DNA of 36,222 bases from positions 1 to 36,222 of the forward strand of contig PFUL01000090.1 of the NCBI GenBank assembly GCA_002790095.1, read 5' to 3'. Of the stretch, positions 31,783 to 36,222 are shown one piece after another (positions within the stretch are counted from its first letter, which is position 1; the number at the start of each line of letters is the position of its first letter). The notes below the pieces were generated by a model that was given only the letters and a program-made list of their open reading frames with translations, did no database searches and was not told the origin of the DNA. The DNA comes from Elusimicrobia bacterium CG_4_9_14_3_um_filter_62_55 (lineage in GTDB: Bacteria; Elusimicrobiota; Elusimicrobia; UBA1565). The position numbers and the translations under genes were made by a program.

Positions 31783-32478
31783 TCATGGATGCGATTCCAG
31801 GAGAGCCTTCTGTGCGAATCTGTGCAAATCCGGGTCCGCCATCGCCTTAAGCTTCTTTTTTACAACGCGCGAATAGTACTCACGCTCCGTTTTCGTCAGT
31901 TCTTCTCCACGCATTCTCTTCTTCACCAACTGCTTTTGCCTTGGGGTCAGCAGCAACGATAGAAAATAGGCCAGTCGAAGCTCCTCTTCGAAGCTCGCTT
32001 TTTCCTCTTCCCTCCGCTTTTTCTCAACCTCGTTTCTTAGAAAATAGGAAACAAACGTATTGCGCAATCTCCCGGAATCCAACCGCAGGTCTTCGGAGAC
32101 TTCCAATGGCTGATCATGAGCGAAGCAGTCTCGGTAGCTCCGCAATTTGGACTCCTCCAACCAACTTGGACGCTTCTCCCCCTTCGCCGCTCCGTACCAG
32201 TCGAATAACACGAACGACAAATGCACAAGCGCTCGAAACCGATTTTTATCCTTCTCCGATTCGAATGACTTTTCGGCTTCCTCCAAGGAAACGGCGGCCT
32301 CTGTTTGCCGCAACGCGTTGCCTAATACGACGGGAAACCCTTCAAGAACGCGCGCGTCCGAACTTGCGCTCATTCGTGCAAGCAAGTCATTCGGTTCGCG
32401 GAATCTTTTTGGCTGCAATAGGGAATATCCGAATTCCGCCAATGCCCCGAACAATTCCGATGAATCTCCGGTCGGCAT
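31783..32478 (-). CDS. Partner of nucleotidyltransferase; candidate toxin-antitoxin component
   Basis: 231 aa. The ATG directly follows the stop of the nucleotidyltransferase gene (TAAATG), so the two are coupled. The first 150 residues are helical and unrecognised (WYGAAKGEKRPSWLEESKLR; YRDCFAHDQPLEVSEDLR). The C-terminus has a compact basic motif (LLTPRQKQLVKKRMRGEELT followed by KTEREYYSRVVKKKLKAMA) that resembles a helix-turn-helix and that I associate with small proteins encoded beside nucleotidyltransferases, mainly in archaea. It may bind the operators upstream of the pair and act as autorepressor/antitoxin; this is inference. Confidence 0.6.
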   Translation of the reverse strand: MPTGDSSELFGALAEFGYSLLQPKRFREPNDLLARMSASSDARVLEGFPVVLGNALRQTEAAVSLEEAEKSFESEKDKNRFRALVHLSFVLFDWYGAAKGEKRPSWLEESKLRSYRDCFAHDQPLEVSEDLRLDSGRLRNTFVSYFLRNEVEKKRREEEKASFEEELRLAYFLSLLLTPRQKQLVKKRMRGEELTKTEREYYSRVVKKKLKAMADPDLHRFAQKALLESHP

Positions 32479-33051
32479 TTACTCCTCCGATCTTCTCATC
32501 AATTGCGTCAGGCTTCCGATTGCGGCATCCGGATTCAACTGGTACTGAGCGGCTTCTCGATATCGCTCTTCGAGTTTTTTGCGATCGAACGACTCTCCTC
32601 TAGCACGAATGAGCCTCAAGCAATCCTCTTCATCGACAAGCGTCCCTCTGAACATTTTTGAAATGATGAAGTCCTCGTCGTTAAGTACGCCGACATAGAT
32701 TTTTTTCAGCTGCCGAATCTTAATGTGGTTGTCCGGATCCAAAGGCGACTCCAGCAGTTCCGTGGTGAAAATTTGTCGCCCTGTAAAAAGATCGATCTCG
32801 AATCCGCCCGGTCCCGTCCACTTAAAGCCGCTTATCTTTCGGTAATCGAGCTTCTTGAGCGTCTTAATCAGCTTTCGATATTCATCGTCTTTGGGTACGA
32901 GGAAATCGATATCCTTGGTCGAGGCCTTGAAATTTTGGAGGGTTAAAGCGGTCCCGCCACAAGCGATCAGACGAATTGGCGATGGGAGGTATTTGTCCCA
33001 TGTCTCGATAACGGTCCAGAGCCAGTCTTTATCTATTATTGCGTATTGCAT
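32479..33051 (-). CDS. DUF6036/AbiEii-like nucleotidyltransferase, candidate toxin
   Basis: 190 aa from ATG at 33051. A minimal nucleotidyltransferase fold: LIACGGTALTLQNFKASTKD followed by IDFLVPKDDEY supplies the G-G-T/S and paired-Asp (DID) catalytic pattern, and FEIDLFTGRQIF the third Asp. The rest resembles DUF6036/AbiEii-type enzymes of type IV toxin-antitoxin and abortive-infection systems, which add nucleotides to tRNA or proteins. No Shine-Dalgarno sequence precedes the ATG; the start codon lies in an operator. It forms an operon with the 231-aa gene. Substrate unknown. Confidence 0.7.
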   Translation of the reverse strand: MQYAIIDKDWLWTVIETWDKYLPSPIRLIACGGTALTLQNFKASTKDIDFLVPKDDEYRKLIKTLKKLDYRKISGFKWTGPGGFEIDLFTGRQIFTTELLESPLDPDNHIKIRQLKKIYVGVLNDEDFIISKMFRGTLVDEEDCLRLIRARGESFDRKKLEERYREAAQYQLNPDAAIGSLTQLMRRSEE

Positions 33052-33168: not shown

Positions 33169-33196
33169 AAAGTGACAAAGTGACGGCCTGACACCC
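33169..33196 (-). repeat. Right copy of 28-bp perfect inverted repeat
   Basis: Plus strand starts AAAGTGACAAAGTGACGG; exact reverse complement of 31172-31199. It overlaps the start of a 12-bp tandem repeat on its outer side. Confidence 0.95.
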
Positions 33197-33224
33197 TATT
33201 TGACACCCTATTTGACACCCTATT
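33189..33224. repeat. 12-bp tandem repeat, three exact copies
   Basis: TGACACCCTATT occurs three times without change and abuts a half attC-like box (33233-33239). The first copy overlaps the right inverted repeat, and the left inverted repeat contains the reverse complement of its first eight bases, so the tandem copies probably expanded from the element end. Confidence 0.9.
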
Positions 33225-33232
33225 TGCTAACT

Positions 33233-33239
33233 GTTAGGC
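33233..33239 (-). other. Half attC-like box, left end of cassette array
   Basis: GTTAGGC on the plus strand (GCCTAAC on the minus) lies five bases past the end of the 172-aa cassette gene, where an attC site should begin. The rest of that site is absent; the 12-bp repeats start instead. It reads as an attC truncated by, or used as target of, the neighbouring element. Confidence 0.6.
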
Positions 33240-33243
33240 GACT

Positions 33244-33762
33244 TCACTTTGCCTTTGTGGCCCGCACCTCAATTGCCCTATCGTCGGGACCATATTCAAC
33301 TTCAACTCGAGTCGTCACGTAGGAAAATGAAAATAGCCGACTGGAAGGATCTCCGAGATCCGCCGGAAACGGTGGACTGATGTAATACTTAACCTTTTTC
33401 TTTTTCTTCACGTCTTCAATTTTCTTCCCGCACTTACCAACTAAAGCCTCAACCTCGTCACGCGACATGCCCTGCTCAATGGCGCACTTTTCATCGAGAA
33501 GGTTTGTTTCCCATTTTGGATACATGGATCTTCCGGCCAAGGCAAAAGCCTGGGATAAGATCAAATAACCGGAAAACAAACCAAACGTAATCCGAACGGA
33601 TGACCAAATCCAAAACTCCTTAGGCTTCTTGCAAACGAACCAAGCCAATGACGCACCGAGAGAGACAAATATCGGGATAAGAGCCGGGTATCGCGCGCCT
33701 AACGACATCGGCAGACAGAGAAGGCCAACCGCAATTAAGACTGGTATGAGAATGTAGATCAA
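33244..33762 (-). CDS. Cassette gene: membrane protein, 172 aa
   Basis: Start TTG at 33762 (weak ribosome-binding site), stop TGA at 33246. Two to three hydrophobic segments fill residues 1-82 (YILIPVLIAVGLLCLPMSLG; IPIFVSLGASLAWFVC; ITFGLFSGYLILSQAFALAG). A C-terminal soluble part follows in which IEQGMSRDEVEALVGKCGKK resembles the SmpA/BamE-type GMs-x-x-V motif. No function assigned. Followed by a half attC box on the left and an attC-like site on the right; A+T-richer than the chromosome around it. Confidence 0.65.
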   Translation of the reverse strand: MIYILIPVLIAVGLLCLPMSLGARYPALIPIFVSLGASLAWFVCKKPKEFWIWSSVRITFGLFSGYLILSQAFALAGRSMYPKWETNLLDEKCAIEQGMSRDEVEALVGKCGKKIEDVKKKKKVKYYISPPFPADLGDPSSRLFSFSYVTTRVEVEYGPDDRAIEVRATKAK

Positions 33763-33780
33763 GCTTTCTGTTCCCAGTTC

Positions 33781-33855
33781 GCCTAACGCATGGATGACCC
33801 GCGCGTGCTAACGGATTCCATAAACGGCGCGCGTCGGGTCCATCCGAAGTTAGGC
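33781..33855 (-). other. attC-like recombination site 1 (75 bp)
   Basis: Ends GCCTAAC and GTTAGGC (perfectly complementary outer boxes). Inside, GGATGGACCCG on one arm pairs with CGGGTCATCC on the other, leaving a single unpaired G, and a further A next to CGCG: the extra-helical bases typical of folded attC bottom strands. The stop codon of the 204-aa gene (33852-33850) lies inside the box, as in many cassettes. Confidence 0.82.
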
Positions 33856-34464
33856 CGCCTTTGATTTGACACCAATTTTCTCCCGAAATGAGTCGCGAAG
33901 GCGTTTCTTGATTTCAACGACTTCAGCCTTCATCTTGTCCATGACAGCCTTCCAGACAAGAACATCTCCCTTCAAGTTTCGGTGCTGGAAATCGATAAAC
34001 GCATCGCCCAGTTCGCAGATGAATTTGTCCACCTGCTCTGCCAGTTCCTGCTCCAAGTAGATTTCATGTTCTTGGAAAAATTCCTGAAGGGCATTGAGGC
34101 AGTCTGCGGCCTTTTTCCCGCGGTCTTCCTCAGATGGCTCTCCTGACATGACAAATGGCTTGACGTAGTTTTGAACCGATCTGTGCGCCTGAACAATTAG
34201 CCGATAGAGACGCGCAATAGTCACGAACACTTTAGCGTGCAGCTGGCCGAATCGAATTCGATGTTCCTCGGATGCTCGGTCAAGCTCAGCCTTGTGCAGA
34301 GTAAGCATTCGCTCATTCTCAGACTGCAGCGCCAGTCGGTGTTTTTCGACATCTTTGTCGAGCAAATGTGAGACGAGCGATTTCGCCAGCCACGCCATGA
34401 CGGCCAGGGCGACTGACGAAGCTCCGAATGCGACAAGGATTTGGGTTAGCATTTCATTTTGCAT
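33850..34464 (-). CDS. Cassette gene: membrane-anchored coiled-coil protein, 204 aa
   Basis: One N-terminal membrane helix (residues 8-30, ILVAFGASSVALAVMAWLAK), then a long charged helical region (DKDVEKHRLALQSENERMLT; ELDRASEEHRIRFGQLHAKV; FVTIARLYRLIVQAHRSV). This pattern, a helix followed by EHxxRFxxLHxK, recurs in uncharacterised proteins of mobile DNA as far as I recall. The TAA stop is inside the GCCTAAC box of attC 1. Function unknown. Confidence 0.7.
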   Translation of the reverse strand: MQNEMLTQILVAFGASSVALAVMAWLAKSLVSHLLDKDVEKHRLALQSENERMLTLHKAELDRASEEHRIRFGQLHAKVFVTIARLYRLIVQAHRSVQNYVKPFVMSGEPSEEDRGKKAADCLNALQEFFQEHEIYLEQELAEQVDKFICELGDAFIDFQHRNLKGDVLVWKAVMDKMKAEVVEIKKRLRDSFREKIGVKSKAA

Positions 34465-34478
34465 CCACCATCATGTCG

Positions 34479-34555
34479 GCCTAACGGCTTTGCTCGGCCG
34501 CCGGCACTATTAGATTCCGCACCGGTGCCGCGACGGCCGGAGCGGAAGGCTTGTC
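34479..34555 (-). other. attC-like site 2, one outer box degenerate
   Basis: The box near the 204-aa gene is perfect (GCCTAAC, 34479-34485). Inner arms pair through CGGCCG, with TTTGCTC opposite GAGCGGAA and bulges. The far box reads GCTTGTC instead of GTTAGGC. Its 50-bp core (34496-34545) is 48/50 identical to site 3. Confidence 0.6.
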
Positions 34556-34566
34556 TTTTGACAAAC

Positions 34567-34989
34567 TCATCCATGGAATTTTGTCATCACCCAATTAAAA
34601 ACAACGGTAGTTGAATGTTTCGGGATCAACAACCACAAGGTAAAAAAGCCGGCGATAAACGCCCCCTCAAAAAGAACCGAATGCGGCCTCTTAAGCTTCG
34701 TTCGCGCCACTGCGCGCTTGCTCAACCAGGCAATCGAAAAGAAGATTCCCCAGACGGCACACACCGTTACACAAATCTCAAAAATAGTCTGAAGGTGGGC
34801 CAGATTTCCCCAGATCATCAACACGTTCAAAAAGAGCGCATATGATGCTGGCAGGACCGCAAAAATAGCGTTCTCTGCAGCAGCCGTTTCCCGGTTCATT
34901 CGTTGGGAGAGGAAGTTTGAAGCTGCCAGCATAAGCGAAAAAACCACAGCAAGAACACCGAACGCCAACAAGTTGCCTAAAAGCGCCAC
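34567..34989 (-). CDS. Cassette gene: four-helix membrane protein, 140 aa
   Basis: Start GTG at 34989 after a purine-rich AGGGAGAGCGAGGGGAA; stop TGA at 34569. Four hydrophobic segments: LLAFGVLAVVFSLMLAASNF, IFAVLPASYALFLNVLMIWG, IFEICVTVCAVWGIFFSIAW and GAFIAGFFTLWLLIPK. No motif recognised. Flanked by the related attC-like sites 2 and 3. Confidence 0.62.
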   Translation of the reverse strand: MALLGNLLAFGVLAVVFSLMLAASNFLSQRMNRETAAAENAIFAVLPASYALFLNVLMIWGNLAHLQTIFEICVTVCAVWGIFFSIAWLSKRAVARTKLKRPHSVLFEGAFIAGFFTLWLLIPKHSTTVVFNWVMTKFHG

Positions 34990-35009
34990 TTCCCCTCGCT
35001 CTCCCTAAT

Positions 35010-35080
35010 GCCTTACGCTAGGCCGCCGGCACTATTAGTTTCCGCGCCGGTGCCGCGACGGCCGGAGCGGGAGCTGGAGC
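35010..35080 (-). other. attC-like site 3, degenerate and partly coding
   Basis: The core 35021-35070 matches site 2 in 48 of 50 bases. The near box is GCCTTAC (35010-35016, one change from GCCTAAC); the far box is not recognisable. The 139-aa gene reads through the whole site and stops within the near box. Confidence 0.55.
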
Positions 35081-35432
35081 CACGGGCCTTTTTTTCCGCA
35101 AAATTGGCAACCTCACCCAACGGCATATCTTTGACCTTTCCGAACCAGGACATATCAACGACCATTTCTCCCGTTTCCTCGCCAAATAGAATGTCCTTGA
35201 CCCGCTCGTTCCGCAAATCCAAATCTCTTACCGACTTCTGAAAGGCATTACTTTTAGTTCGCCCACCCTTCGATGTACGAAAAAAGAGGATATAGCTCTC
35301 GGGCTGAACCAAAACCCAATAATCGGGTTTGGCCTGTTCGATCAAGGGAGTAAGAATAGCGTTGACTTCGGAATCGATCCCTTCCGGGACGATTGCGCAA
35401 AGAACCGTGAATTCCTCAATTCGTCCAGACAT
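35013..35432 (-). CDS. Cassette gene: hypothetical protein, 139 aa, tail encoded by an attC-like site
   Basis: ATG at 35432, ten bases from attC 4. Residues 1-117 look like a compact alpha/beta protein (IEEFTVLCAIVPEGIDSEVN; YWVLVQPESYILFFRTSKGG) with no known motif. Residues 118-139, a low-complexity basic stretch (SSSRSGRRGTGAETNSAGG), are encoded by attC-like site 3, so the original stop has probably been lost. Function unknown. Confidence 0.62.
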   Translation of the reverse strand: MSGRIEEFTVLCAIVPEGIDSEVNAILTPLIEQAKPDYWVLVQPESYILFFRTSKGGRTKSNAFQKSVRDLDLRNERVKDILFGEETGEMVVDMSWFGKVKDMPLGEVANFAEKKARGSSSRSGRRGTGAETNSAGGLA

Positions 35433-35442
35433 GAAAGCTTCC

Positions 35443-35522
35443 AGCTAACGCCGAGGATGAGCGGCGGCGGCTATCAAGATATTCCTCACCGAGCCGCCGG
35501 CCGCTCTATCCATTAGTTAGGC
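35443..35522 (-). other. attC-like recombination site 4 (80 bp)
   Basis: Minus strand starts GCCTAAC and ends GTTAGCT. Inner arms GGATAGAGCGGCCGGCGGC and GCCGCCGCCGCTCATCC pair fully except for one extra A and one extra C on the first arm, the hallmark of attC folding. It separates the 143-aa and 139-aa genes. Confidence 0.8.
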
Positions 35523-35533
35523 GCTCCGTCACG

Positions 35534-35965
35534 TCAGAATCCGAGAATCCAAATGACTTCATGCGTCTTTGCCTTCTCGTTCATCCACATCGTCAGTTCG
35601 GATATCACTCCAAGAAGTGACTCCTTGTTTCTCCCGAAGTCCTGTGCAAACTCATTCCGTCCTTCCGCGAGGTCGGCGAATTGAATGATCCCGTCCAGTT
35701 CAGAAACAGACTTTGCATCAGCAAGGAGCTTTGATAACCGCTCCAACCGAACAATAGCCTTCATGCATGTTGCCCGGGGCAATTCGTTTGGCCCGAATCG
35801 AGTAAGCCCGGGTACTGCTTTTGATAGTGCTGGCTCGATATACCCAAAGACTTCATCCTGTAAAAAAATGGAATCTTCATTCCAATGCGATCCTTTCGGA
35901 GCGCCGGCGGCGAATTCAACGAAATCGCCTTTCTTCATACCTCGACGTAGTTCTATTTCAATCAT
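35534..35965 (-). CDS. Cassette gene: hypothetical soluble protein, 143 aa
   Basis: ATG at 35965, ten bases from a GCCTAAC/GTTAGGC box; stop TGA at 35536, 11 bases before attC 4. Begins MIEIELRRGMKKGDFVEFAA; the middle is helical (ATCMKAIVRLERLSKLLADA) and the end is HEVIWILGF. No signal, membrane helix or motif recognised. Function unknown. Confidence 0.62.
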   Translation of the reverse strand: MIEIELRRGMKKGDFVEFAAGAPKGSHWNEDSIFLQDEVFGYIEPALSKAVPGLTRFGPNELPRATCMKAIVRLERLSKLLADAKSVSELDGIIQFADLAEGRNEFAQDFGRNKESLLGVISELTMWMNEKAKTHEVIWILGF

Positions 35966-35975
35966 CTCTAGATGC

Positions 35976-35982
35976 GCCTAAC
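35976..35982 (-). other. attC-type 3' box (GTTAGGC on minus strand)
   Basis: Marks the cassette boundary upstream of the 143-aa gene. No matching GCCTAAC partner is seen to the right before the group II intron, so the rest of this attC is missing or highly diverged. Confidence 0.5.
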
Positions 35983-35984
35983 AA

Positions 35985-36146
35985 TTAGTATGCCGTTCCG
36001 TGTATCACAATAAAATCCGTATCAATAACTTCAAAAAGTATAGGCATCATTTGGATTATCCGCCATGGGGAATTTGCGGAAAAAACAGCAAGTACAGAAG
36101 AATTCTTCTGCATATCACGAATCGACGCATTCCAAACCCAATTCAC
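35985..36146 (-). CDS. 3' fragment of a cassette gene, cut by the group II intron end
   Basis: A 53-codon frame ends with TAA two bases before a GTTAGGC box. It reads NWVWNASIRDMQKNSS to DFIVIHGTAY without a convincing start; a GTG falls exactly at the intron 3' end (36146). It looks like the C-terminus of a protein whose 5' part was separated by the intron, but a short product from the internal ATG is possible. Not recognised. Confidence 0.4.
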   Translation of the reverse strand: MNWVWNASIRDMQKNSSVLAVFSANSPWRIIQMMPILFEVIDTDFIVIHGTAY

Positions 36147-36222
36147 ATAGGTAGGCAGTCGCCTGCTTTCCCTGTAACACCACCGTGCGTACGGGTCCGT
36201 ACACGGCGGTTCGGCGGATTAA
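36147..36222 (-). mobile_element. 3' end of a group II intron (domains V and VI)
   Basis: On the minus strand ACCGCCGT-GTACG-GACC-CGTAC-GC-ACGGTGGT (36210-36179) folds as domain V: an 8-bp lower stem starting near the catalytic triad, a two-base GC bulge on the 3' side, a 5-bp upper stem and a tetraloop. A domain VI-like hairpin (GCAG-GCGA-CTGC with AGG/CCT below) follows, ending CCTAT at about 36147, the likely 3' splice site. The bulge position sets the sense strand as minus, so the rest of the intron and any reverse-transcriptase gene lie beyond the right edge. Confidence 0.8.

Follow-up and report, generated by a model that had tools for sequence, protein, structure and literature searches.

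A gene-cassette array headed by an attI-like site in an Elusimicrobiota genome: probably the proximal end of a sedentary chromosomal integron

The window analysed here is a whole contig (C43, positions 1–36222) of a 4.31-Mb draft genome in 202 contigs. Five consecutive ORFs of 172, 204, 140, 139 and 143 aa span 33244–35965 on its minus strand, bearing out the first-pass annotation, which had seen five short genes of this orientation. Read on the minus strand from the right, the order is the end of a group II intron (36141–36211), ∼150 bp of further DNA, a GTTAGGC core (35976–35982) and then five units, each a gene plus a site. With cassette boundaries set at G^TT, these are five short single-ORF cassettes in one orientation, 533, 440, 524, 698 and 556 bp long in minus-strand order and thus within 440–698 bp. 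GC content is 0.504 in the array and 0.627 in window positions 1–31000, confirming the A+T-richness that had been claimed for the array.

Cassette 1 (35449–35981) carries the gene 35534–35965, whose 143-aa product has remote relatives on Priestia plasmids (23–27% identity) and is without a family in Pfam, NCBIfam, PADLOC and PHROGs. Cassette 2 (35009–35448) carries 35013–35432 (139 aa), a reading frame that now runs through the decayed recombination site of its own cassette; a plasmid search with the product gave no match. The product of 34567–34989 in cassette 3 (34485–35008) is hydrophobic and, at 140 aa, is a probable membrane protein, as is the 172-aa product of 33244–33762 in cassette 5 (33231–33786). 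Cassette 4 (33787–34484) carries 33850–34464; its 204-aa product has a hydrophobic segment at the N-terminus followed by a helical part, and a homologue is absent from the 146 other relatives searched. Matches of this protein to RTasTM (E = 1.1e-4) and 6A-MBL (E = 4.7e-5) cover the membrane-anchor and helical part, lie far below the NCBIfam cut-off and were not accepted as homology. The earlier description of all the cassette products as unrecognised stands, with nothing above the curated cut-off for any of the five in Pfam, NCBIfam, PADLOC or PHROGs. Their homologues are too few to be aligned.

To the left of the array, a 12-bp perfect tandem repeat in three copies (TGACACCCTATT, 33189–33224) adjoins the last recombination site. 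Beyond it come a DUF6036 nucleotidyltransferase-like gene with a weak AbiEii match (32479–33051) and a partner of no recognised family (31783–32478), with no attC between them. These two may be a defence or toxin-antitoxin pair within the variable region that also holds the array.

Recombination sites were sought with two models. R1 is an attC covariance model trained on 13 sites from class 1 integrons and the Gemmatirosa plasmid integron, with zero sequence from the window's genome. R2 is a second alignment and model, built from 16 attCs of the window's genome and a relative, G047; attC-1 and attC-4 are in its training set, so that their R2 scores (57.6 and 46.4 bits) are not independent. With default filters R1 recovers full-length sites that it misses when the filters are off, probably since match length is in that case capped near the length of the model.

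Two sites are intact, and these are the two for which the first-pass annotation had proposed a covariance-model check. Site attC-1 (35443–35522) scores 36.2 bits with R1 and is the best R1 match of the entire 4.3-Mb genome (E = 6.1e-4), a rank on which a chance palindrome was rejected; sites on contigs C64, C39 and C121 come next. Site attC-4 (33781–33855), which resembles sites in genomes G005, G008, G009, G010 and G028, scores 26.3 bits. Both matches are on the minus strand, the strand demanded by gene order. The two sites have R''/R' and L''/L' boxes, and in their bottom-strand folds the R boxes are paired, the central spacers are unpaired and single extrahelical bases are confined to the 3′ arm, like those of the class 1 and Gemmatirosa references; the one-base bulges noted earlier at sites 1 and 4 are thus present, on that arm only. 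Stop codons do lie in or next to the boxes, as had been stated; the gene 33850–34464 ends inside the R'' box at 33849–33855.

The other three sites are damaged. attC-3 (34478–34556) has lost R'' and kept R', and is identical at 62 of 73 positions to the intact attC of C39 at L012:3341–3418 (alignment score 50; shuffle maximum 15.5). attC-2 (35003–35085) has also lost R'', its R' reads ATTAGGG instead of GTTRRRY, and it is 60/75 identical to that C39 attC (score 43.5, shuffle maximum 19.5). Neither was called by R1 or R2. attC-5 (33226–33239) is a 14-bp stemless remnant, R''-A-R' (GCCTAAC-A-GTTAGC, GCCTAACAGTTAGC). The palindromes with GCCTAAC/GTTAGGC ends that had been reported for the array have boxes at the positions described, but attC-2 and attC-3 are without R'' and attC-5 is without a stem. 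Judged from sequence, the locus is partly decayed, with two attCs degenerate and one a remnant; of its five sites only two look recombinogenic. The exact pattern GCCTAAC-N20-50-GTTAGGC has zero matches in the genome because genuine attC spacing is longer, and a scan at Rfam gathering scores gave no match.

Palindromes between same-strand genes could instead be other intergenic repeats, REP-like elements or terminators separating the genes of ordinary operons. Across the 16 clade attCs of the R2 alignment, however, the inner stem is paired in 100% of cells, compensatory changes occur at 9 of 13 pairs, and the covariation score is 0.433, against 0.124 for shuffled and at most 0.068 for slid alignments. 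This covariation, the R and L boxes, the extrahelical bases and the strand bias fit attC, and attI and IntI exist in the genome. In relatives, moreover, the adjacent genes change while the sites persist; an intact operon order was looked for there and not found. Ordinary intergenic repeats are accordingly a very improbable explanation.

An attI-like site heads the array at 35976–36075 on the minus strand, with the crossover between G35982 and T35981. It aligns to the attI regions that follow intI on two other contigs of the genome: with the region on C39 it scores 37, where the best of 1000 shuffles gives 18.5, and with the region after the intI remnant of C121 it scores 25.5 (best shuffle 18.0). 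All three regions terminate at GTTAG. The right-hand boundary at ∼35976–35982 is by this homology the end of attI and not an attC. An attI common to the whole order was tested for and not found, clear matches coming only from this genome's two attI regions, and no sigma-70-like cassette promoter was found in the attI stretch.

Beyond attI the contig soon ends. Group II intron domains V–VI lie at 36141–36211 on the minus strand (RF00029, 38.6 bits, E = 2.5e-5, slightly below the Rfam gathering score of 40), and window positions 36136–36222 recur at the ends of two further contigs (C89:6–92 and C73:27081–27164), so that the 3′ end of a repeated intron closes three contigs. Because this segment is repeated and contains the intron domains, the assembly most likely broke inside a repeated group II intron. 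The genome yielded just one group II reverse transcriptase, a partial one (C4:3586–3882). On C39 the integrase ends ∼270 bp upstream of the crossover, and the same distance here falls just beyond the contig end.

As annotated earlier, no integrase is seen on the contig as assembled; the contig stops in the intron, past attI and short of where intI is expected. The array could accordingly be a CALIN, an attC cluster that has no integrase of its own and is a leftover of, or is supplied by, one encoded at another place in the genome, and the IntI genes and additional attC arrays on other contigs agree with that. Against it, attI heads the array and the repeated intron cuts the contig before intI is expected, and we consider a CALIN unlikely. 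The earlier proposal of a CALIN or the distal part of an integron was not borne out on these same two grounds. Headed by attI, the array is, as far as homology can tell, the proximal and not the distal end of an integron.

The array also belongs with the genome in which it was binned. In a 202-contig draft assembly, an array with GC below that of the rest of its contig might suggest a foreign contig misbinned into the genome. Yet the PEPCK of the window contig shares 83% identity with its counterpart in the same-genus genome and 71–76% within the family, the gene order to the left of PEPCK is kept in two same-family genomes and breaks off at PEPCK, and the window attI matches the attI of two other contigs of the bin. 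Misbinning is hardly credible on this evidence. Since PEPCK is of host type and synteny to its left stops there, the array lies, by these sequence comparisons, in a variable region of an Elusimicrobiota chromosome. The closest named IntI is from Elusimicrobia bacterium NC_groundwater_827_Pr1_B-0.1um_69_30 (58%).

Integrase genes were found on two contigs of the window's genome. C39 (6365 bp) encodes an IntI above the TIGR02249 cut-off (356 bits); the IntI-specific WGWQWVF patch is present, and attI and four attC sites follow in the same direction. Its intI has a one-base frameshift immediately before the catalytic-tyrosine segment, which is either a true lesion or an assembly error. The IntI of C121 has a deletion, seen as an internal gap in its profile match, and histidine in place of the catalytic tyrosine; from its sequence it is very probably dead, and attC sites are still present after the intI remnant. 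Since both integrase genes are damaged, present activity is unproven. In the sole same-genus genome (G004, L087 11380–12400) the IntI match is also lost shortly before the catalytic-tyrosine segment, so that integrase loss may be common in the host genus.

Cassettes in the sister arrays include HigB with an HTH antitoxin, a Gp49-like/HTH pair and BrnT; toxin-antitoxin cassettes are established as frequent in sedentary integrons (PMC8618304). A further cassette array of the genome, at the end of contig C64 (L086 1–2100), has its start within an attC; it holds small ORFs in pairs, which resemble toxin-antitoxin cassettes.

Integrons are not confined to this genome. IntI matches above the curated cut-off were found in 27 of the 97 Elusimicrobia-class genomes searched. 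With the window's own genome counted, 7 of 8 members of the host family have an IntI match, among them G005 (C4:2047–2973, E = 7.5e-126). R2 found attC sites in 27 of 57 genomes. The single-contig genome G047 has 43 of them by R2, in a main array at 2.93–2.96 Mb adjoining intI and a second cluster at 3.468–3.478 Mb. The former belongs to a large same-direction integron (C1:2.928–2.963 Mb) whose intI match holds one TAG stop; the latter (3.468–3.480 Mb) is half a megabase from it.

When the array region was used as a DNA query against other genomes, similarity was mainly at attC sites and not at cassette genes, and none of the five cassette proteins was found in the retrieved loci of relatives. 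Conservation is highest for attC-1, identical at 78 of 80 positions to an attC of G047; both mismatches are at the final two bases, past G^TT and already in the next cassette. Identity up to G^TT is, in sequence terms, the pattern left by cassette recombination. The first-pass annotation had named conserved gene order without the palindromes as what would count against cassettes; the relatives have attC sites in common, but not the genes or their order. The shared sites suggest that cassettes pass between genera of these poorly known, uncultured bacteria.

No natural gene-capture system is better understood than the integron. We put the probability at roughly 95% that the array forms the attI-proximal portion of a sedentary chromosomal integron. 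The integron and cassette reading of the first-pass annotation gains support from independent R1 matches at both of the sites it singled out and from relatives that share attC sites and not genes, and the sedentary type from the chromosomal context, the clade family of attC sites and the HigB and BrnT cassettes on sister contigs. Points against the integron reading are the contig without visible intI, the damage to both IntIs of the genome, an attI stretch in which no promoter-like match was found, and a set of five sites of which two are degenerate and one a remnant.

In the proposed mechanism IntI, a tyrosine recombinase, would recombine the folded single-stranded attC of circular cassettes with double-stranded attI at 35976–36075, so that mostly promoterless genes would have been inserted successively on the minus strand; attC × attC recombination would remove cassettes, and intI would be located on the far side of the group II intron that closes the contig. 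Recombination itself, cassette expression and an intI past the contig end are what we infer; modular exchange of genes around conserved attC sites is read from the relatives. The window thus very probably holds an integron with attI and five captured genes, a system of known kind in a phylum where integrons seem little described; for the window itself this is a confirmation, and the mechanism is no surprise.

A 2021 review, The Natural History of Integrons (PMC8618304), gives 14 phyla with integrons, and Elusimicrobiota is missing from its list. Of the papers searched that name both integrons and Elusimicrobiota, none concerns integrons of this phylum, judging by title and abstract, and priority is not established.

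The direction of intI divides the integrons of the class. At each of the 13 host-order loci that show both intI and attC, as on C39 and C121, intI runs toward attI, in the cassette direction, while in other families of the class four loci have a divergent intI, like class 1. In an IQ-TREE tree of 38 IntIs a single branch separates the rows labelled same-direction from those labelled divergent (support 97/94; 98% of bootstrap trees), where shuffled labels need 4.6 changes on average. G033, of the host order and with polarity unseen, groups with the other IntI clade, and the IntI of Gemmatirosa kalamazoonensis is the sister group of the host-order clade. We see even odds that two distinct integron lineages, opposite in polarity, exist in Elusimicrobiota and that one order shares a cassette pool, with near-identical attC sites beside unrelated genes in different families, tied to the same-direction IntI lineage, in a phylum without described integrons. 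Because intI orientation splits so cleanly between two IntI clades, one can test how the same-direction arrangement arose.

Four known systems can be compared with this locus. A CALIN is an attC cluster without an integron integrase (IntegronFinder, PMC9024848), and the window contig by itself is alike, with no IntI and with at least two attC sites; it differs in having attI and in being cut before the intI position. Class 1 integrons share the attC box order, the G^TT crossover and the extrahelical bases, and their IntI1 is ∼48% identical to the C39 IntI; their intI is divergent and they are mobile with resistance cassettes, whereas here the array is chromosomal and no resistance gene is recognised. 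The integron of Gemmatirosa kalamazoonensis plasmid 1 (1.1 Mb; L033 12001–24861) has the same polarity and more than 10 attC sites, but is from another phylum, is plasmid-borne and has longer attCs (∼96–130 nt). In the Treponema denticola integron, for which a same-direction intI has already been described (PMC3607928), attC-flanked short genes mostly of unassigned function likewise accompany attI and IntI. The differences are the phylum, the clade-specific attC sequences, the group II intron and contig end that cut off the intI expected in the window, and the damage to the two IntIs found in its genome. The likeness extends to polarity for C39, C121 and the 13 same-order loci, the window's own intI being unseen: at all of these, as in Treponema denticola, intI is transcribed toward attI.
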